Of a DNA stretch of 64,000 nucleotides, positions 39,000-48,264 are shown piece by piece (positions within the stretch are counted from its first letter, which is position 1; every line of letters starts with the position of its first letter). The notes beneath the pieces were generated by a model. It saw only the letters and a list, made by a program, of their open reading frames with translations, searched no databases and was not told the DNA's origin. A program made the position numbers and the translations under genes. Source of the stretch: an uncultured Sphingomonadaceae bacterium (GTDB taxonomy: Bacteria; Pseudomonadota; Alphaproteobacteria; Sphingomonadales; Sphingomonadaceae); the NCBI GenBank assembly GCA_903871605.1, contig CAIQHF010000036.1, positions 310,001 to 374,000 on the forward strand. Direction: 5' to 3'.

Positions 39000-39554
39000 C
39001 TAGCAGCGCTGGCTCGCCAATCGGCGCATCATCGGTATGAAGTCGGCGAAGTGGCGCGTTGCCGCTTCGTCGCTCTTCCCGCCATCGTCGAAACGACGCA
39101 GCGCGACGGCCTCGCGCCAATAGGAAAGGCGTTCGAACGCCTCGGCTTCGGCCGGCTCGAATGCGCCGCCTTGCACGTCGAGCGACATCTGCGATGCTCG
39201 GCTCAGCGCCGGAAAATAATCCCGATCAACCGCGCAGAGATAGCGCTTGGCCGGCACGTGGAGCGCGACGGGGCGCGACACCGCCGCCCCGAACATGTCC
39301 GCAAGCGCCTCGGCGCCGACCAGTTCGTGGTGATCGTCGATGCTGAAATCGGCGGTCTCGTCCGGATGGACGACGAGATGCCCGACATCGTGAAGCAGCG
39401 CGGCGACGATCAAGGCGTCCGACGCGCCGCTCGCCTCGGCAAGCACCGCACATTGGACCGCATGTTCGACCTGCGTGACACCCTCGCCATAGCGGAGGCG
39501 ACCACGCGCGCCATAGAGATCGACAATGTCGTCGACGGTCGTGACGGTGATCAT
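39000..39554 (-). CDS. HD-domain oxygenase, PhnZ/TmpB-like
   Basis: A 184-residue protein from ATG 39554. It matches the mixed-valent diiron HD oxygenases that cleave the C-P bond of 1-hydroxy-aminophosphonates. Early RYGEGVTQVEHAVQ holds His31; LLHDVGH holds His55-Asp56; then His76 (DDHHELVG), His99 and Lys103 (LHVPAKRYLC), and Arg153 with Asp156 (RRFDD). The spacing fits the metal and substrate ligands I recall for PhnZ. PhnZ gives glycine plus phosphate; TmpB gives glycine betaine plus phosphate. The gene is last in an operon for glycine betaine demethylation, with a 32-base gap after soxG. No partner alpha-ketoglutarate hydroxylase (PhnY/TmpA) is in the window. A different HD hydrolase function is possible. 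Confidence 0.72.
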   Translation of the reverse strand: MITVTTVDDIVDLYGARGRLRYGEGVTQVEHAVQCAVLAEASGASDALIVAALLHDVGHLVVHPDETADFSIDDHHELVGAEALADMFGAAVSRPVALHVPAKRYLCAVDRDYFPALSRASQMSLDVQGGAFEPAEAEAFERLSYWREAVALRRFDDGGKSDEAATRHFADFIPMMRRLASQRC

Positions 39555-39586
39555 GGCGGTGCTCCGGATCGGTCTCGCCGAACCCG

Positions 39587-40069
39587 TTAGAGATCGTCCG
39601 CCGCAAGCGCCAGCGCGGCATGGAGATAGGCCGCGAAGGATCGCCAGGTCTCGATCCGGAATTCGGCCTCGCCGGTCCGCCACAGCACGATCTCGACGCC
39701 GTCGTAGAGCGTTCGCGTGACCTTGCCGGGGGGAAAGGTCGCGAGCGACAGGTCGAGCGCGCACCCGCATTGGATCAGCGCGGCGGCCCGATCGCCAGCC
39801 ACCGTCAGCCCGACATTGCGGTGTCCGATGTCGGTCAGGGCGTGCAGCGGCGCGATCGTCGGTGGTTGCGCGCCGTCGGGCAGGATCAGCAGCCATTCGT
39901 CGGGGCCGAGAGCGAGCGCGTGGCCATCCGCGAACCGCGCGCTGGCGAGCAGCCTCGGCAAGCCGCTCGGTACGCGCGTCCGCAGGCTGTAGCGGACCGC
40001 CGGCGGCGTCCACGCGATCGCGATGCCGTCGCGGACGACGGGCTCGTCGGCAAGAAGCGCATCAGCCAT
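39587..40069 (-). CDS. soxG: sarcosine oxidase gamma subunit
   Basis: A 160-residue SoxG-type protein: LGPDEWLLILP, ALTDIGHRNVGLTVAGDRA and CALDLSLATFPPG-TRTLYDGVEIVLWR are family landmarks. It is structurally related to the GcvT fold and completes the heterotetrameric sarcosine oxidase. Overlaps soxA by 8 bases. Confidence 0.85.
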   Translation of the reverse strand: MADALLADEPVVRDGIAIAWTPPAVRYSLRTRVPSGLPRLLASARFADGHALALGPDEWLLILPDGAQPPTIAPLHALTDIGHRNVGLTVAGDRAAALIQCGCALDLSLATFPPGKVTRTLYDGVEIVLWRTGEAEFRIETWRSFAAYLHAALALAADDL

Positions 40070-42923
40070 CGAGTCGCGCTCCCTCTCGATCGTAGAAGAG
40101 CGGCTCGCTGACGGTCACACGGTGGGTCTTGTCCGCCATAGGCACGAACAGCGTCTCGCCGATCCGCGCCCGCCCGCCCGCGACCACCGCGAGCGCGATC
40201 GAACGGCCGAGCGTCGGGCTATGGTAGGAGGAGGTGACGTGGCCGATCATCGGCACGGGCACCGGCGCGTTCGGAACGTCGACGATCTGCGCGCCCTCTT
40301 CGAGGACATAGTGCGGATCGTCGGTCAGCAACCCGACGAGTTGCTTGCGATCGGGCAGCAGCATGTCGGGCCGCGCGAGCGAACGGCGGCCGACGAAATC
40401 GAGCTTCTTCTTGCCCACCGCCCAGCCGATCCCGGCATCGTCGGGAGTAAGCGTCCCATCGCTGTCCTGGCCGACGATGATATAGCCCTTTTCGGCGCGC
40501 AGCACGTGCATCGTCTCGGTCCCGTAAGCGGTGATGCCATGCCTCTGGCCCTCGGCCCACAAGGCCTCCCACACCGCAAGGCCGTGCCCCGCGGGGACGT
40601 TGACCTCGAAGCCGAGCTCACCGGTGAAGCTGACACGGAACAGCCGCATCGGCACGCCGCAGATGCGGCCCTCGGCATAGGCCATATGCGGCAAAGCCTC
40701 GGGCGACAGGTCGACACCCTCGACATGGGGGGCGATCACGTCGCGTGCGCGCGGACCCTGCAGCGCGATCACCGCATATTGTTCGGTGGTCGAGGTCAGC
40801 CAGACGTCGAGATCGGGCCATTCGGTCTGGAGATAATCCTCCATCATGCCGAGCACGCGCGCCGCGCCGCCCGTCGTGGTGGTGACGTGGAAGCGATCGT
40901 CGGCGAGGCGGGCGGCGACGCCGTCGTCGCGGATGAAGCCGTCCTCGCCGAGCAGCAGGCCGTAGCGGCAGCGACCCGGCGCCAGCGCCTTCCATGGGTT
41001 GGTGTACATGCGGTTGAGGAACTCGGCGGCGTCGGGGCCGACCACCTCGATCTTGCCGAGCGTCGAGGCGTCGAACATCCCGACTCCCGTGCGCACCGCG
41101 CGGCACTCGCGCGCGACGGCCGCGTCCATGTCCTCGGATGCGCGCGGAAAATAACGCGCGCGGCGCCATTGCGCGACATTCTCGAACACCGCGCCTTGGG
41201 CGTGCGCCCAGCTGTCGATCACGGTTTTGCGCGTCGGCTGGAACAGCGCATCCTTGGCGCTGCCGGCGAGCGCGCCGAACGTCGTGGGCGTATAGGGTGG
41301 CCGGAAGGTCGTCAGCCCGACCTGCGGCGCCGTGTTGCCGAGCGCCCCCGCCGCCACCTGTAGGCCGTTGAGGTTCGAGGTCTTGCCCTGGTCGGTCGCC
41401 ATGCCGTTGGTGGTGTAGCGCTTGATGTGCTCGATCGAGCGGAAGCCCTCGCGGACCGCGAGCCGGATATCGCGCGCGGTAACGTCGTTCTGGAGATCGA
41501 CGAACGCCTTGAAGCTTGCCGGATCGCGCGGGCTCCACAGCGCCTCGGCATGGACGCCGTGGCCCGGATCGATCGCGCCGGCGCAGGCACCCGTGCACGT
41601 CACCCGATCCATCTCGCCCTCGGGCACGAACGCGCCGAGCGCTTCGTCCCAGCCAAGCTTGCCCTTGCCGTGGCTCCACAGGTGCACGGTCGGCGTCCAG
41701 CCGCCCGCCATCAGCAGCGCGTCGCAGGCAATCTTGCGCACCTGTCTGCTGCCGAGCGGAGCAAGGGTGATGCCCGTCACCGCCTTCGCGCCGTGCGTGC
41801 CGATCACGACCGCGTGCGGGATCAGCTCGAGCCCGAGGTCGCTGGCGCGTGCCTTGAGAGACGGGTCGAGATCGGGCCGGGAATCGACGATCGCAGCAAT
41901 CCCGATGCCCGCCTCGGCGAGATCGAAAGCGACCTGGTAGCCGCTGTCGTGCGTCACCATCAGCGCAACGCGTTTGCCGACCGCGACGCCGTAGCGATGC
42001 AGATAGGTGCGCGCGGCGCTGGCGAGCATCACGCCGGGGCGATCGTTGTCGGCGAACACCAGCGGACGCTCGATCGCGCCGGTCGCAAGCACGATCCGCG
42101 CCGCGCGGATGCGATGGAGCCGTTCGCGGGGCCCGGTCGCGGTCGCCGGGGGAAGGTGATCGGTCAGTCGCTCGACCGCACCGACGAAACCATCGTGATA
42201 AAGCCCGATCGCCGTGGTGCGCGAAAGGCAAACGACCCCCGCGTCGTCCAGCCGCGTGAGCGCTCCCGCGAGCCAGTCCCACCGCGCGGGGTTGGCGAGC
42301 AGCTTGCCGCCGAGCTCGGGCTGCTCGTCGATCAGCATCACGCGCTCGCCGCTCGCCGAAGCCGCAAGCGCCGCCTCGATACCCGCCCGGCCCGCGCCGA
42401 CGATCAGGAGATCGACGAAATCATGCCGCGCCGTATAGCGATCGGGGTCGATCGCATGAGGCGCCTTGCCCAGCCCCGCCATGCGACGGATGGCGGGCTC
42501 GTAGAGCGTCTCCCATGCGCTGCGCGGCCACATGAAGGTCTTGTTGTAGAACCCTGCCGGGAAGAGCGGCGACAGCAAATTGGTCGCGGCGCCGAGATCG
42601 AAGCCCAGCGACGGCCAGCGATTTTGCGTCTCGACGGTGAGATCGTCGTGCAGTTCGATCGTCGTCGCGCGGACGTTGGCGGTATGGCGCCCGGGTCCGC
42701 GATCGACGCCCATCAGCGCGTTGGGTTCTTCCACGCCCGCGCCGAGCAGGCCGCGCGGGCGATGATATTTGAACGAGCGCCCGACCAGGTGCACGCCGTT
42801 GGCGAGCAGCGCCGAGGCCAGCGTGTCGCCGGCGGCGCCCGTCATCGCTTTGCCGTCGAAGCGGAAGGCGACGGGGCGGGCGACATCGATCCGGCCGCGA
42901 CCGGGGAGGCGGAAGGCGCTCAT
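40062..42923 (-). CDS. soxA: sarcosine oxidase alpha subunit
   Basis: About 953 residues from ATG 42923, overlapping the soxD stop. The N-terminal ~95 residues form a 2Fe-2S-ferredoxin-like domain without an obvious Cys cluster, with SFKYHRPRGLLGAG; then an NAD-binding domain LLIVGAGRAGIEAAL; the second half is a tetrahydrofolate-binding GcvT-like domain (RTGVGMFDASTLGKIEV to the GWAVGKKK block). With SoxB, D and G it oxidises sarcosine to glycine, passing formaldehyde to tetrahydrofolate. Confidence 0.93.
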   Translation of the reverse strand: MSAFRLPGRGRIDVARPVAFRFDGKAMTGAAGDTLASALLANGVHLVGRSFKYHRPRGLLGAGVEEPNALMGVDRGPGRHTANVRATTIELHDDLTVETQNRWPSLGFDLGAATNLLSPLFPAGFYNKTFMWPRSAWETLYEPAIRRMAGLGKAPHAIDPDRYTARHDFVDLLIVGAGRAGIEAALAASASGERVMLIDEQPELGGKLLANPARWDWLAGALTRLDDAGVVCLSRTTAIGLYHDGFVGAVERLTDHLPPATATGPRERLHRIRAARIVLATGAIERPLVFADNDRPGVMLASAARTYLHRYGVAVGKRVALMVTHDSGYQVAFDLAEAGIGIAAIVDSRPDLDPSLKARASDLGLELIPHAVVIGTHGAKAVTGITLAPLGSRQVRKIACDALLMAGGWTPTVHLWSHGKGKLGWDEALGAFVPEGEMDRVTCTGACAGAIDPGHGVHAEALWSPRDPASFKAFVDLQNDVTARDIRLAVREGFRSIEHIKRYTTNGMATDQGKTSNLNGLQVAAGALGNTAPQVGLTTFRPPYTPTTFGALAGSAKDALFQPTRKTVIDSWAHAQGAVFENVAQWRRARYFPRASEDMDAAVARECRAVRTGVGMFDASTLGKIEVVGPDAAEFLNRMYTNPWKALAPGRCRYGLLLGEDGFIRDDGVAARLADDRFHVTTTTGGAARVLGMMEDYLQTEWPDLDVWLTSTTEQYAVIALQGPRARDVIAPHVEGVDLSPEALPHMAYAEGRICGVPMRLFRVSFTGELGFEVNVPAGHGLAVWEALWAEGQRHGITAYGTETMHVLRAEKGYIIVGQDSDGTLTPDDAGIGWAVGKKKLDFVGRRSLARPDMLLPDRKQLVGLLTDDPHYVLEEGAQIVDVPNAPVPVPMIGHVTSSYHSPTLGRSIALAVVAGGRARIGETLFVPMADKTHRVTVSEPLFYDREGARLDG

Positions 42924-43234
42924 ACGATTCCGCCCGTGTCGCCGGTCCAGCTGTCCGCCTCGCCGGGGCGCGCGACACCTGCCTTGTAGGTCCGCTCGAA
43001 CGTGTCGGTGACGGTGTCGCGGACCGCGTTGAAGAAGCGCCCGCAGCCATGGACGTGGCGCCATCGCTCGAAATGTCGCCCGCGCGCATTGGTGCGGACG
43101 AACAAATAGGTTTCCCACTCGGCATCGCTCAGATCGTCAGGATTGATCGGACGCGCGATATGCGCCTCGCCGGCATAGCCGAACTCGATCTCGGGGCGCG
43201 GCTCGTCGCAATAGGGGCAGTGGATCAGCAGCAT
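42920..43234 (-). CDS. soxD: sarcosine oxidase delta subunit
   Basis: A 104-residue SoxD protein beginning MLLIHCPYCDEPRPEIEF. The N-terminal CPYC and the later HVHGCGRFFNAVRDT supply the cysteines and histidines that bind zinc in this subunit. Overlapping or near-overlapping starts with soxB and soxA show translational coupling. Confidence 0.93.
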   Translation of the reverse strand: MLLIHCPYCDEPRPEIEFGYAGEAHIARPINPDDLSDAEWETYLFVRTNARGRHFERWRHVHGCGRFFNAVRDTVTDTFERTYKAGVARPGEADSWTGDTGGIV

Positions 43235-43235
43235 G

Positions 43236-44489
43236 TCAGTGTGCCACCGCGGCCGCGGCCGCTTCGTCGATCAGCCGTCCGCTGCGGAAGCGATCGAGGT
43301 TGAAGGGGGCATTGATCGGGTGCGGCTCGTCCTTGGCGATCGTCCAGGCGAGCAGGTCGGCGGCGCCGGGCGTCGCCTTGAAGCCGCCCGTTCCCCAGCC
43401 GCAATTGACGTAGAGGCCCTTGACCGGAGTCTTGCCGAGGATCGGCGAGCGATCGGGTGTCACGTCGACGATGCCACCCCAGTTGCGCAGCATCCGCATG
43501 CGGCGGACGACCGGAAATATCTCGCAGATCGCCGCCAGTGTATGCTCGACGATGTGGAGCGCGCCGCGCTGCGAATAGCTGACATAGGCGTCGGTGCCAG
43601 CGCCGATCACCAGCTCGCCCTTGTCCGATTGGCTCATATAGGCGTGCACCGTGTTCGACATCACGACGCAGGGGAAGAAGGGCTTGACCGGCTCGGAGAC
43701 CAGCGCCTGCAAGGGAAAGCTCTCGAGCGGGAAGCGCAAGCCCGCCATGTCCATCAGCACCGAGCTGTTGCCCGCTGCCGACACGCCGATCTTTCTGGTT
43801 GCGATGAAGCCGCGTTCGGTCTCGACGCCCTCGACGGCACCGTCGGCGCCGCGACGGATACCCGTGACCGCGCAATTCTGGATGATGTCGACGCCGAGCG
43901 CCGCGGCGCCGCGGGCATAGCCCCAAGCCACCGAATCGTGCCGCGCCGTGCCGCCGCGTCGTTGCAACGCGGCGCCGAGCACGGGATGGCGCGCATTGGG
44001 GTCGATCGAGAGCGGCGGGCAATAGGCCTGCGCCTCCTCGGCGGTCAGCCATTCGTTGTCGACGCCGTTCAGGCGGTTCGAATGGATGTGGCGCTTGAAG
44101 CTCTGCACGTCGTGGACGTTGTGCGCGAGCATCAGCACGCCGCGCTTGCTGTACATGACGTTGTAGTTGAGCTCCTGGCTGAGGCCGTCCCACAGCTTGA
44201 CCGCGTGATCGTAGAGGAACGCGCTCTCGTCGTAGAGATAGTTGGAGCGGATGATGGTCGTGTTGCGGCCGGTATTGCCGCCGCCCAGCCAGCCCTTGTC
44301 GATCACCGCGACATTGGTGATCCCGTGCTTCTTGGCCAGATAATAGGCGGCGCCGAGCCCGTGCCCTCCGGCTCCGACGATCACCGCGTCGTAAGATGGC
44401 TTGGGCGCGGCATCGGGCCACTGCGCCGGCCAGCCCTTGTGGTGCCCGATCGCCTTGGCAAGCAGCGTTGCCGCGGAAAACCGCGTCAC
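43236..44489 (-). CDS. soxB: sarcosine oxidase beta subunit
   Basis: About 417 residues from GTG 44489, whose codon overlaps the Rieske stop. FAD-binding VIVGAGGHGLGAAYYLAKK near residue 36; GRNTTIIRSNY, FPLESFPLQALVSEP and the C-terminal GWGTGGFKATPGA are SoxB landmarks. This subunit carries the flavins and the sarcosine-binding site. Its position directly after the Rieske oxygenase and before soxD-A-G matches pathway order. Confidence 0.92.
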   Translation of the reverse strand: MTRFSAATLLAKAIGHHKGWPAQWPDAAPKPSYDAVIVGAGGHGLGAAYYLAKKHGITNVAVIDKGWLGGGNTGRNTTIIRSNYLYDESAFLYDHAVKLWDGLSQELNYNVMYSKRGVLMLAHNVHDVQSFKRHIHSNRLNGVDNEWLTAEEAQAYCPPLSIDPNARHPVLGAALQRRGGTARHDSVAWGYARGAAALGVDIIQNCAVTGIRRGADGAVEGVETERGFIATRKIGVSAAGNSSVLMDMAGLRFPLESFPLQALVSEPVKPFFPCVVMSNTVHAYMSQSDKGELVIGAGTDAYVSYSQRGALHIVEHTLAAICEIFPVVRRMRMLRNWGGIVDVTPDRSPILGKTPVKGLYVNCGWGTGGFKATPGAADLLAWTIAKDEPHPINAPFNLDRFRSGRLIDEAAAAAVAH

Positions 44490-45739
44490 GCCGCCCGCCC
44501 GCCGAGCGCGCGCTGTGCACGGCTGGTATAGAAGGTCTTGAAGCTCTCGACGAGCTTCTCCTCGGTCGAATAGGGGCCGGGGCGATAGCCGTCGCCGCTG
44601 ATGCCGAGATGGTTGATGTGGGCGAGCCACGAATCCTGCGCATTGGTCGCCCGCCACACCGCGGTGAGATTGTCGACGTCGTAGTCGACGCCTTCCTCGG
44701 CATCCTCGCGCACCAGCCAGCTCGTTCGCAGCAACGTCCGGTCGGGTGCCAGCGGGGTCAGCGAAAAGGTGACGACATGGTCGCAGCAGAAATGGTGCCA
44801 GCTGTTGGGCTGCGTCCATACCGAGAGGCTGGAGGTGTTGGGTTCGGTGAACGGGCCGAGCAGCTTGCGACAGGCGACCGTGCCATCCATCGTCTGAGAC
44901 ACGGCACCGTTGGCGAGCGGCAGGCGCGCGACGCGATGCCACCAGTCGTCCGGAAACTCGATGAGATCGTGATAGATGCCCAGCCTTTTCCACTCCTCGC
45001 GCTCGGCGCCGACGATGTCGATGAATGTCGTGTCGTCCACCACGCCGGCCGCGCCCGCATCCTCCGGCAGGCCCTTGCCGAACCCGTTGGTGCCGAGACA
45101 GGCGATCAGCTCGGGATGGTTGCTATCGCAATGATAGCATTCGCGGTTATTCTCCATCACGAGCTTCCAATTGGCATGCTCGACCAGCTCGTCCTGCGCC
45201 ACCACCTTGCAATGATCGAGATCGTAGATCGAAACCTGCTCGGCAATGTCGGCCTTGACGCGATCGATCGGCGGCGGCGTGTCGGCAAGGCACACGAACA
45301 GCAGGCCGCCGATATTCTCGATCGCGACCGGCAGCAGGCCATGATCGGCCTTGTCGAACTTGTCGCCCATGTTGCGCGCGGCGAGCAGCCTGCCGTCGAG
45401 CCCGTAGGTCCAGACATGATAGGGGCACATCAGTCGCGACGCGCTGCCGCTCTGCTCCTGGCAGATCCGCGCGCCGCGATGCCGGCAGCTATTGTGGAAG
45501 GCGCGGACCTCGCCATCGCGGCCGCGGACGATGATCACCGAATTATTGGCGAGCTCGAACAGGAAGAAGTCGCCCGGCTTCTTCACGTGCGCGACGGTAC
45601 AGGCGTAGAGCCATACCGACTTCAGCATCACCTGCGTGTCGAAGTCGAAGGCCTGCTGGCCGACATAGAGCTGCTGGGGGAGGGTATGGCCGGGCCGGGC
45701 CTCCGCCAGCAGGGCAGGGATGGTCTCATAGGCGGACAT
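44486..45739 (-). CDS. gbcA: Rieske oxygenase, glycine betaine monooxygenase-like (GbcA)
   Basis: About 417 residues. Rieske 2Fe-2S ligands: Cys85-x-His87 (CRHRGARIC) and Cys105-x2-His108 (CPYHVWTY). The catalytic domain contains ENNRECYHCDSNHPEL, a hallmark of the quaternary-ammonium oxygenases (glycine betaine, stachydrine, carnitine). The adjacent dimethylglycine and sarcosine genes make glycine betaine the likely substrate; the products would be dimethylglycine and formaldehyde. The expected ferredoxin-reductase partner (GbcB) is not in the window, so electrons must come from a protein encoded elsewhere. Confidence 0.85.
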   Translation of the reverse strand: MSAYETIPALLAEARPGHTLPQQLYVGQQAFDFDTQVMLKSVWLYACTVAHVKKPGDFFLFELANNSVIIVRGRDGEVRAFHNSCRHRGARICQEQSGSASRLMCPYHVWTYGLDGRLLAARNMGDKFDKADHGLLPVAIENIGGLLFVCLADTPPPIDRVKADIAEQVSIYDLDHCKVVAQDELVEHANWKLVMENNRECYHCDSNHPELIACLGTNGFGKGLPEDAGAAGVVDDTTFIDIVGAEREEWKRLGIYHDLIEFPDDWWHRVARLPLANGAVSQTMDGTVACRKLLGPFTEPNTSSLSVWTQPNSWHHFCCDHVVTFSLTPLAPDRTLLRTSWLVREDAEEGVDYDVDNLTAVWRATNAQDSWLAHINHLGISGDGYRPGPYSTEEKLVESFKTFYTSRAQRALGGRAA

Positions 45740-45744
45740 GCGGC

Positions 45745-48264
45745 CTAGCTCCTGAGCGCGATGTTCTCGGGATCGAACGGCGAATCCGCGATCACGGTTG
45801 CCGCATGACGCTCGCCGAGGATGATGATCGACAGCGCGGTGCCCGGGGCGGCGAGATCGGGGCGGACCATCGCGAGCGCAAGGCTCTTGCCCGTCCGCCA
45901 GCCATAGCCGCCCGATGTCGCGCGGCCGACCATCTCGTCGCCGAGCAGGATCGGCTCGGCGCCGCGCGCGTCGGCATCGGTGACGCCGTGCACCTCGAGC
46001 GTGACGAGCGCATTCGTCTCGCCCGCGTCGCGACGCGCGAGCAGCGCATCCTTGCCGAAGAAGCCCGGCTTCTTCTGCCCGATGAAGCGCCCGAGACCGC
46101 TTTCATAGGCGGAATATTCGACCGACAGTTCGCGCGGGATCAGCTTGTAGCCCTTCTCCAGCCGCATCGAGTCCATCGCGCGGATGCCGAAGGGCTTGAG
46201 GTCGTCGCCGCCGGCCGCGAACAGCAGGTCGAAGATGTAATTCTGCATCTCGATCGGATGGTGGATCTCCCAGCCGAGCTCGCCGACGAAATTGACCCGC
46301 AGCGCCTCGACCTGCGCGACGCCGATGCTGATCCGCTTGCCGGTCAGCCAGGGGAATGCGGCGGTCGAGAGATCGGTGTCGGTCAGCTTGGCGAGGATCT
46401 CGCGCGACGTGGGGCCGGCGAGCACGAGCACGCCCATCGCCGTCGTCTGGCGCTCGAAGCTGACCGAGCCGTCCTTGGGCATTAGCTGCCGCAGATAGTC
46501 GTGGTCATGCTTCTCGTAGGCGCCCGCCGAGACGAGGAAGTAACGCTGCGGCCCGCGCTTGTAGACGGTGAACTCCGAGCGCACCCCGCCGCGCGCGGTG
46601 AGCAGATAGGAAAGGGTGACGCGGCCGATCGCCTTGGGCACCGCGTTGGTCAGCAGCCCGTCGAGCCAGGCCTCGGCGCCCGGCCCCGAAATCTCGCATT
46701 TGGCGAAGGCGCTCATGTCGAGCAGTCCCGCCTTCTCGGTCACGTGGCGGCATTCGGCGCCGACATGCTCGAAATAGTTTGAGCGGCGGAACGACCATTT
46801 CTCGAGCACCGGATCGTCGCCGTCGGGCGCGGGGTAGTTGTGGTGGAGCAGCACGTCGGGGCTGTTCTTCTCGCCCTCGGTGAGCTGATAGCCTTCGGGG
46901 GCGAACCAGTTCGGCCGCTCCCAGCCGAACACGGTGCCGAACACCGCGCCCTTCGCCTTCATCCGATCGTAGCAGGGCGCGCGGCGCAGGCCGCGGGCGC
47001 CTTCGCGCTCCTCGTCCGGATAGTGGACCGAGAAGACCTTGGCATAGGCTTCCTCGTTCTTGGCCTTGAGATAGCCGAAGCCCGCATAGTCGCCGAAGCG
47101 GCGCGGATCGACGCCGGTCATGTCGATCGTCGGCTCGCCATCGACGATCCAGTGCGCGAGCTGCCAGCCGGCGCCGCCCGCCGCGGTGATGCCGAAACTG
47201 TGGCCCTCGTTGAGCCAGAAGTTCTTCAGCCCCGGCGCTGGGCCGACGATCGGGCTGCCGTCGGGCGTATAGGCGATCGCGCCATTATAGACGCGCTTGA
47301 TGCCGACCTCGCCGAACGCGGGCACGCGCGCGATCGCCGCCTCGACATAGGGCATCAGCCGGTCGAGATCCTCGGGGAAGAGTTCATATTCGGACTGCGC
47401 GTCGGGACCATTGGGGTAGCAGATCGGCGCGCCGATCTCATAGGGCCCGAGCAGCAGCCCGCCGGCTTCCTCGCGCATGTAATAGCTGGCGTCGCTCTCG
47501 CGCAGCACGCCCATTTCGGGAAGCCCCTGGCGCTTGCGTTCCATGATCGCGGGATGCTGTTCGGTGACGATATATTGGTGCTCGACCGGGATCACCGGCA
47601 CGTCGAGCCCGACCATCTGGCCGGTCTGGCGCGCGAAGCTGCCCGTTGCGGAGACGACATGCTCGCACAGGATATCGCCCTGGTCGGTCGAGACCAGCCA
47701 TTCGCCGCTCGGCTGCTGCACGATCGCGGTGACGACGGTGTTGCGGTGGATCGTCGCGCCCATCTGCCGCGCGCCCTTGGCCAGCGCCTGGGTGAGGTCG
47801 GCGGGCTGGATATAGCCGTCGGCCGGGTGGCGGATCGCGCCGAGCACGCCGGTGGTGTCGCACAGCGGCCAGATCGCCTTGAGCTCGTCGGGGGTCAGCA
47901 TGTCGACCTCGACGCCGATCGTTCGCGCGACGCCCATATAATATCGATATTCGTCGAGCCGGTCCTGCGTGCAGGCGAGGCGGATGTTGGACACGTTCGA
48001 GAAGCCGACGTTCAGCCCGGTTTCGGCCTCGAGCGAGGGATAGAGCGCGACCGAATATTGGTGCATCTTGCCGACGGAATAGCTCAGGTTGAACAGCGGC
48101 AGCAGGCCCGCCGCATGCCAGGTCGAACCCGAGGTGAGCTCCTTGCGCTCGATCAGCATCGCATCGGTCCAGCCGAGCTTGGCGAGATGGTAGAGCGTGC
48201 CCACGCCGACCACGCCACCACCGATCACCACCACGCGCGCGCTTGTCTTCAAAGGTCGACCCAC
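45745..48264 (-). CDS. dimethylglycine/sarcosine dehydrogenase-like FAD and folate enzyme
   Basis: About 839 residues, GTG 48264 (TTG 48252 is also possible and would begin MKTSARVVVIGG). The N-terminal half is an FAD-dependent D-amino-acid-oxidase fold (VVVIGGGVVGVGTLYHLAK, ERKELTSGSTWHAAGLLP), the His in STWHAAG being the covalent flavin site in dimethylglycine dehydrogenases. The C-terminal half is a GcvT aminomethyltransferase-like folate domain (AGLLDMSAFAKCEISGPGAE to the GWRTGKSLALAMV block). It likely demethylates dimethylglycine to sarcosine. It is the first gene of the soxBDAG operon, with a 5-base gap to the Rieske gene. Confidence 0.9.
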   Translation of the reverse strand: MGRPLKTSARVVVIGGGVVGVGTLYHLAKLGWTDAMLIERKELTSGSTWHAAGLLPLFNLSYSVGKMHQYSVALYPSLEAETGLNVGFSNVSNIRLACTQDRLDEYRYYMGVARTIGVEVDMLTPDELKAIWPLCDTTGVLGAIRHPADGYIQPADLTQALAKGARQMGATIHRNTVVTAIVQQPSGEWLVSTDQGDILCEHVVSATGSFARQTGQMVGLDVPVIPVEHQYIVTEQHPAIMERKRQGLPEMGVLRESDASYYMREEAGGLLLGPYEIGAPICYPNGPDAQSEYELFPEDLDRLMPYVEAAIARVPAFGEVGIKRVYNGAIAYTPDGSPIVGPAPGLKNFWLNEGHSFGITAAGGAGWQLAHWIVDGEPTIDMTGVDPRRFGDYAGFGYLKAKNEEAYAKVFSVHYPDEEREGARGLRRAPCYDRMKAKGAVFGTVFGWERPNWFAPEGYQLTEGEKNSPDVLLHHNYPAPDGDDPVLEKWSFRRSNYFEHVGAECRHVTEKAGLLDMSAFAKCEISGPGAEAWLDGLLTNAVPKAIGRVTLSYLLTARGGVRSEFTVYKRGPQRYFLVSAGAYEKHDHDYLRQLMPKDGSVSFERQTTAMGVLVLAGPTSREILAKLTDTDLSTAAFPWLTGKRISIGVAQVEALRVNFVGELGWEIHHPIEMQNYIFDLLFAAGGDDLKPFGIRAMDSMRLEKGYKLIPRELSVEYSAYESGLGRFIGQKKPGFFGKDALLARRDAGETNALVTLEVHGVTDADARGAEPILLGDEMVGRATSGGYGWRTGKSLALAMVRPDLAAPGTALSIIILGERHAATVIADSPFDPENIALRS

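Follow-up and report, generated by a model that had tools for sequence, protein, structure and literature searches.

The stretch of DNA analysed here (the window) comprises 64,000 nucleotides of contig CAIQHF010000036.1 (GenBank assembly GCA_903871605.1, positions 310,001 to 374,000 of the forward strand) from an uncultured Sphingomonadaceae bacterium. On its minus strand it carries a gene for a 184-residue HD-domain protein, running from an ATG at 39554 to a TAG at 39000, behind dmgdh-like, gbcA-like and soxBDAG genes; judged by sequence, these six genes form a betaine/sarcosine demethylation operon. Our analysis concerns the family of the HD protein, the origin of its position and the reaction that it may catalyze. 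The gene order, with the HD gene in phase at the end, had been given in an earlier note made from the sequence, and was confirmed as follows (FAD, flavin adenine dinucleotide; DMGDH, dimethylglycine dehydrogenase).

39000..39554, minus strand: HD-domain oxygenase, 184 aa, Phn-HD (TIGR03276) and PhnZ/TmpB related (profile, PDB match, alignment, tree, structural model)
39555..39586, minus strand: 32-bp spacer between soxG and the HD gene, with GGAG 7 nt ahead of the HD ATG (sequence)
39587..40069, minus strand: soxG, sarcosine oxidase gamma subunit (TIGR01375 99.6 bits, below the cut-off of 143.95; PF04268 27.8 bits, over the cut-off of 21)
40062..42923, minus strand: soxA, sarcosine oxidase alpha subunit (TIGR01372 1386.9 bits, over cut-off; start by codon score)
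42920..43234, minus strand: soxD, sarcosine oxidase delta subunit (TIGR01374 121.4 bits, over cut-off)
43236..44489, minus strand: soxB, sarcosine oxidase beta subunit (TIGR01373 694.2 bits, over cut-off; start by codon score)
44486..45739, minus strand: gbcA-like Rieske oxygenase of the glycine betaine monooxygenase type (NF058607 420.5 bits, below the cut-off of 670; Rieske and Ring_hydroxyl_A domains)
45745..48234, minus strand: DMGDH-like FAD and GCV_T protein, first gene of the operon (DAO, FAO_M, GCV_T, GCV_T_C; start by codon score)

Neighbouring genes among the six of the operon overlap by up to 8 bp or are separated by up to 5 bp, and the longest open reading frame of the dmgdh-like gene extends to 48264. 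A promoter scan of the locus gave nothing useful. The genome (G000) has a second gbcA-like and sox gene set on contig C38 (L262:2596-12384), with a SoxB 50% identical to that of the window.

A relative of PhnZ and TmpB

The HD protein is a relative of the PhnZ and TmpB oxygenases within the Phn-HD group, as the earlier note had supposed. Its match to the NCBIfam model TIGR03276 (Phn-HD; E 1.5e-60, 203.8 bits) narrowly misses the curated cut-off of 214.6, which is exceeded in 35 of the 87 class-sample genomes with a match at 1e-30; because of this shortfall, the kinship is claimed from the tree and the features of the protein and not as a clean model hit. Models for TmpB (NF049941, 164.5 bits) and for the hydroxymethylphosphonate enzyme PhnZ1 (NF052439, 163.9 bits) stay below their cut-offs of 300. 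Among solved structures, the sequence matches TmpB (6npa, E 6.5e-32) and PhnZ (E 4e-23).

Residues singled out by the earlier note are all at the positions it gave. In an alignment of 119 rows (the window protein, 116 other genome loci, and the matched stretches of TmpB and PhnZ), His31, His55, Asp56, His76, His99, Lys103 and Arg153 are invariant, and Asp156 is found in 114. The H...HD...H...H...D diiron ligand set is complete (H31, H55, D56, H76, H99 and D156), and at the 34 positions where at least 90% of the other 116 genome rows agree, the protein has the conserved residue every time. We take Lys103 and Arg153 to be putative phosphonate-binding helpers, in line with the roles described in work on PhnZ. 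Tyr22 is invariant in a 40-row alignment (A1), and Glu24 is present; in the mobile loop the two stand one residue closer (Y-x-E) than Y24 and E27 of PhnZ (Y-x-x-E). Over the 119 rows, the Y-x-E form occurs in 30 (window included), Y-x-x-E in 83 and other forms in six. The ligand set is described as a family feature in the literature (PMC8177086).

An AlphaFold model of the protein (pLDDT 93.3) predicts the PhnZ/TmpB fold. In a structure search with this model, PDB ranks 1 to 10 are all TmpB or PhnZ chains (E up to 5.3e-9, TM 0.82-0.87) and rank 11 follows at E 0.16, these ten chains being the only matches below E 0.001.

The position of the protein within the group was examined with an IQ-TREE tree of the 119 rows and a repeat run lacking six long rows (PhnZ among these); in both, the bootstrap was still short of convergence. 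The window HD groups as sister with L092, from a second genome of the same genus (G300; 100/93), and the two form a five-row clade with L049, L054 and L057 (100/92); both groups were recovered without the long rows (100/90 and 100/88). TmpB is placed elsewhere, among HD proteins linked to TmpA. HD clades track gene context (TmpA, C-P lyase, PhnX/FAD): linkage to TmpA takes two changes on the tree, against a mean of 20.8 in shuffles. Positions typical of TmpB were defined as those kept in at least 80% of 16 TmpB-clade rows and in at most 25% of 40 rows with a C-P lyase or PhnX/FAD context; the window HD has 6 of these 29 residues (manual count). The tree, one of the checks that the earlier note had proposed, does not place the protein beside TmpB but with LysR-linked HDs. 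Five TmpA-linked HDs (L093, L127, L129, L132 and L144) have the short Y-x-E loop and lie outside the TmpB clade, so the TmpA partnership is not limited to that clade.

Placement of the HD gene in related genomes

The four nearest relatives of the window HD share one arrangement. In G300, L049, L054 and L057, the first 4 bp of the HD gene lie within the end of a LysR gene, which is transcribed divergently from FAD oxidase, PhnX and transporter genes, and a long TonB-type gene comes after the HD gene. The HD closest to that of the window (60% identity) thus sits behind LysR in a phosphonatase cluster of G300, a genome that is 80% complete. The window genome retains the TonB-LysR-FAD-PhnX-transporter set on contig C38, with identities to G300 of 86% (LysR), 81% (FAD oxidase), 82% (PhnX) and 89% (TonB), and the 178 bp that separate LysR from TonB contain no HD gene. 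The FAD oxidase (TIGR03364, 416.5 bits) and PhnX (TIGR01422, 334.4 bits) of this set are over the NCBIfam cut-offs; the best match of LysR is phn_lysR (248.8 bits, below the cut-off of 341.1), and the transporter is DUF5690. A search of the C38 gap for an HD remnant, with lenient settings on a 380-bp target, gave scattered short matches, the best of which (27 residues, 30% identity, E 9e-4) lies partly inside the TonB gene and was counted as none. The genome has a single Phn-HD match. Because its own LysR/FAD/PhnX cluster lacks an HD gene while the nearest relatives carry one there, the placement at the sox operon looks derived.

The sox operon of G300, split over two contigs, is the same as that of the window (DMGDH 97%, GbcA 82%, SoxB 94-99%, SoxD 89%, SoxA 87% and SoxG 70.5% identity); no HD gene lies behind its soxG, and eutC and eutB are found there on the opposite strand. 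In a sample of the order Sphingomonadales, soxG was detected at 1e-12 in 27 of 396 genomes (own included), and tblastn found no HD in any of the 26 other soxG stretches fetched, two of which (L226 and L235) have less than 1 kb beyond soxG. This negative rests on tblastn, because genes were called with a codon-score script, not a standard caller, which left soxG uncalled in 11 of the 26 loci and one more without a next gene. Judged by these stretches and by G300, the HD gene is not a regular member of the betaine/sarcosine operon.

In the converse survey, HD genes of full length turned up in 13 of 298 genomes of the family and 3 of 10 of the genus, and HD matches in 87 of 385 class-sample genomes (at 1e-30) and 17 of 397 genomes of a second family sample (own included in each). 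Besides the window, 119 HD loci were collected: 12 from the family, that of G300, four on Actinomycetota contigs, 99 from the class and three further family places. In tblastn searches with the window Sox proteins, no sox gene above 40% identity was found near the first 116 of these (for 12 of which one flank is shorter than 3 kb) and no match near the last three. Weak matches of the operon proteins occur near the HDs of L108 (DMGDH 40%, GbcA 32%), L136 (DMGDH 27%), L165 (SoxA 27%), L172 (DMGDH 42%, cut by the end of the stretch) and L176 (DMGDH 38%). Clustering of the neighbours of 114 of the 116 loci gave a TmpA-like gene in 25, C-P lyase genes in 23, PhnX and/or FAD oxidase in 17 and other contexts in 49. 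C-P lyase labels were assigned by eye; at one of the 23 loci (L136), PhnJ, PhnI and PhnH have Pfam support and the PhnM-labelled protein matches Amidohydro_3 only. A PhnJ-labelled protein compared with NCBIfam matches no model at 1e-15. TonB (L223 excepted), LuxR-like, MFS and DMGDH-like labels were likewise partly set by eye.

Among plasmids, 6 of the 28 records with an HD match were viewed, 7 kb to either side. In two of them HD is paired with PhyH, in two with TauD and in one with phospholipase C; in the sixth it stands beside TIGR03364-phnX. The PLSDB gene tables, which are incomplete, list no sox gene near the HD on any of the six. Literature listings confined to open-licence papers showed no report of the HD-sox gene order, of which the earlier note knew no description and which we have seen in no other locus examined.

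Since the placements of the HD gene in G300 and the window are reversed and no HD stands beside sox genes in the other loci surveyed, the gene has most likely been relocated from a phosphonatase locus. The simplest history would be a single move in the window's lineage, by which the HD gene left the phosphonatase locus for the sox operon; this direction is the one that the tree suggests.

On C38, the phosphonatase cluster is flanked by choline dehydrogenase, phosphocholine-specific phospholipase C, ethanolamine permease, EutB and EutC; the full row (L223, G000:C38:112000-131900) reads choline dehydrogenase, HAD-like (no Pfam match), phospholipase C, TonB receptor, phn-type LysR, FAD oxidase, PhnX, DUF5690 transporter, ethanolamine permease, EutB and EutC. 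In G300 it is the sox operon that has such neighbours, namely genes for EutBC, phospholipase C, choline dehydrogenase and betaine-aldehyde dehydrogenase. A phospholipase C gene stands divergent from the HD gene, about 0.15-0.25 kb away, in 6 of the 12 family loci and in all three further family loci (L048, L050, L052, L055, L056, L058 and L284-L286, often with a TonB-type gene behind the HD), and likewise near and divergent from the HD gene of the Novosphingobium plasmid NZ_CP039697.1. The survey thus points to phospholipase C as an HD partner in sphingomonads, and such loci could possibly serve the scavenging of phosphonolipid headgroups; the listing from one literature search showed no report of a phosphonolipid role of the HD protein.

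Two further observations concern the surroundings. The window segment 33661-38937 holds vitamin B12-type uptake genes (labels by eye), among them a TonB receptor (TIGR01779 226 bits, below the cut-off of 599.7) that is convergent with the HD gene. Loci L002 and L003 have LuxR-like, autoinducer-synthase-like, PhyH oxygenase and GntR-like genes in like order (by eye; PhyH by search).

Predicted reaction and competing explanations

PhnZ converts (R)-1-hydroxy-2-aminoethylphosphonate (R-HAEP) to glycine and phosphate, and TmpB converts the trimethyl form to betaine and phosphate, both with a mixed-valent diiron centre (PMC8177086, PMC10574752; see also PMC9296572). PhnZ homologues in phnWX clusters (15 of 1,186) and phnWAY clusters (24 of 75) have been tied to the use of R-HAEP (PMC8154272). 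N-methyl-2-aminoethylphosphonate (N-methyl-AEP) is a substrate of PbfD FAD oxidases; PbfD1 also accepts dimethyl-AEP, PbfD2 accepts AEP, and PbfD genes other than PbfD1 stand mostly beside phnX alone (PMC10590968); from its context, we take the TIGR03364 protein of the phosphonatase locus to be PbfD-like. Given these reactions, clusters and substrates, the window HD should act on hydroxylated, perhaps N-methylated, AEP. From N-methylated substrates it would make sarcosine, dimethylglycine or betaine, all of which suit the operon, and from the plain substrate glycine.

A hydroxylase that could supply the substrate was sought in the window genome, in which 12 2-oxoglutarate oxygenases were found (five PhyH-type and seven TauD-type). 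TmpA, for which the earlier note had recommended a search, was not found: none of the 12 matches the TmpA model NF049936 (ten scanned at 1e-8, two at 1e-15), which scores 279 bits on a TmpA-like protein used as a control, and a TmpA-like query reached 21 bits at best. One of the 12, L008, matches the related carnitine model TIGR02409 at 35.7 bits (cut-off 414.75). The five PhyH proteins match no NCBIfam model at the limits used, and a PhnY*-like hydroxylase may be among them. Because no hydroxylase partner was found, the substrate may be imported ready-made. Five TauD-type dioxygenase genes lie within 16 kb elsewhere in the genome (G000:C29:71053-87032).

On balance we think it probable, with substantial room for doubt, that the window gene encodes a C-P cleaving, mixed-valent diiron oxygenase of the PhnZ family that has left a LysR-FAD oxidase-PhnX locus and, within the genus, come to stand last in the dmgdh-gbcA-soxBDAG operon. 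Lys103 and Arg153 would help the enzyme to bind the phosphonate group of a 1-hydroxy-2-aminoethylphosphonate, whose C-P bond it would cut with O2. Phosphate would be released, and the amino acid formed beside it would be glycine if the substrate is plain and sarcosine or dimethylglycine if it is N-methylated. The methylated products could then be demethylated by the DMGDH and Sox proteins encoded in the same operon. The likely reaction is thus conversion of R-HAEP or an N-methyl form to phosphate and glycine or an N-methylglycine usable by the operon, and the position of the gene suggests that its product feeds the betaine/sarcosine pathway, a coupling that may be of benefit.

Several points weigh against this interpretation. 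The HD-sox link is a single case, and a terminator scan found no site anywhere, the end of the HD gene included; co-transcription is something we infer. AEP specificity has been limited to the original PhnY*Z subclade (PMC8316502), so R-HAEP as the substrate of the window HD is a guess. The literature examined names no substrate-tested enzyme of the window-HD clade; the enzymes with tested substrates there are PhnZ, TmpB, the methylphosphonate-pathway PhnZ and the fused PhoF, few for genes as common in the class sample as those of the Phn-HD type. The 60% identity between the window and G300 HDs is at the low end for this pair (EutC 63%, SoxG 70.5%, others compared 80-99%), so the gene may have been transferred from another lineage, although HD diverges faster than its cluster between L049 and L054 as well (82.5% versus 91-96%). 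Finally, a second HD could have been missed in G300, given its completeness.

A more specific proposal, which we advance tentatively, is that the HD protein is the oxygenase for mono- or dimethyl hydroxy-AEP, giving sarcosine or dimethylglycine and phosphate, and that it forms a phosphonate branch of betaine catabolism within a wider sphingomonad programme of headgroup scavenging. One operon would then span the phosphonate headgroup, C-P cleavage and N-demethylation, and the programme would include phosphocholine-type phospholipase C, breakdown of choline and ethanolamine, and FAD oxidase with PhnX, for the headgroups of phospholipids and phosphonolipids. The change of neighbours between two genomes of one genus yields a concrete substrate hypothesis, conversion of N-methyl-HAEP to sarcosine, which is testable with compounds already made (PMC10590968).

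A possible second coupling of HD and demethylase genes is found in another family of the class, where L176 (4483-12265) carries on one strand a DMGDH-like gene (DAO, FAO_M, GCV_T and GCV_T_C), a TauD-family gene whose protein falls in the TmpA cluster, HD, phnW (over cut-off) and a phosphodiesterase-family gene; were the proposal above correct, this would be an independent version of the same arrangement. At L108 (8018-16501), in a further lineage, whose HD is the closest row outside the five-row clade, the DMGDH-like gene and a Rieske oxygenase (the GbcA match noted above) lie 4-8 kb from the HD gene. Because the DAO+GCV_T family is broad, both loci are a hint only.

It is possible, though on our assessment unlikely, that the relocation was neutral, the HD protein still serving the unlinked C38 phosphonatase pathway (R-HAEP to glycine and phosphate) and the sox site being a borrowed promoter only. 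The absence of the pairing from all 119 other HD loci and 26 other soxG stretches is consistent with this, as are the persistence of the ancestral partners PhnX and FAD oxidase in the genome and the fact that glycine is not a sarcosine oxidase substrate. Against it stand the location of the gene on the soxG strand, 32 bp away with GGAG before its start, in an operon that consumes N-methylglycines; the regrouping of choline, ethanolamine and phosphonate genes between the window genome and G300, as if they belonged together; and the DMGDH-like gene beside another HD at L176.

True TmpB function, that is, conversion of (R)-1-hydroxy-2-trimethylaminoethylphosphonate to glycine betaine, is improbable and was rejected. 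In its favour, TmpB ranks first among PDB matches in sequence as well as in fold, betaine would go straight into the gbcA step, and the five TmpA-linked HDs outside the TmpB clade share the short loop; however, the tree and the clade residues place the window HD in another clade, the model score is far below its cut-off, and no TmpA was found among the 12 oxygenases of the genome, so that the trimethyl pathway of the earlier note is not supported. That the protein is an HD phosphohydrolase and not an oxygenase can be given hardly any weight, since the ligand set is complete, Lys103 and Arg153 are conserved, Tyr22 is invariant in A1, Glu24 is present, and below E 0.001 only the oxygenases PhnZ and TmpB match.

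Comparison with known systems

PhnZ of the uncultured bacterium HF130_AEPn_1 (PDB 4mlm, 4mln and 4n71) is 37% identical to the window HD over the matched stretch and shares with it the predicted fold, the iron ligands, the Lys/Arg/Ser/Gln positions and the Tyr and Glu of the mobile loop; the window loop is one residue shorter, and the window gene has no linked 2-oxoglutarate hydroxylase. TmpB of Leisingera caerulea, the best solved match, is 39% identical over the matched stretch with like ligands, but belongs to a separate clade, has the YxxE loop, and differs from the window HD at most clade-typical residues and in having a TmpA partner.

Closest are the HDs of the LysR-TIGR03364 FAD-PhnX loci (L092 of G300, L049, L054 and L057), with 55-60% identity and the same clade, ligands and short Y-x-E loop; there the HD gene adjoins phosphonatase genes, whereas that of the window closes a sarcosine oxidase operon. 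A more distant HD stands beside TIGR03364-phnX on the Asticcacaulis sp. DW145 plasmid NZ_AP029026.1. Among the dmgdh-gbcA-soxBDAG operons of other Sphingomonadales, the six-gene order of the window recurs in 14 of the 26 other soxG stretches, with DMGDH 76-81% identical; the remainder have dmgdh and sox without gbcA (eight), sox genes only (three) or are truncated (one; manual tally), and neither these operons nor that of G300 are closed by an HD gene.
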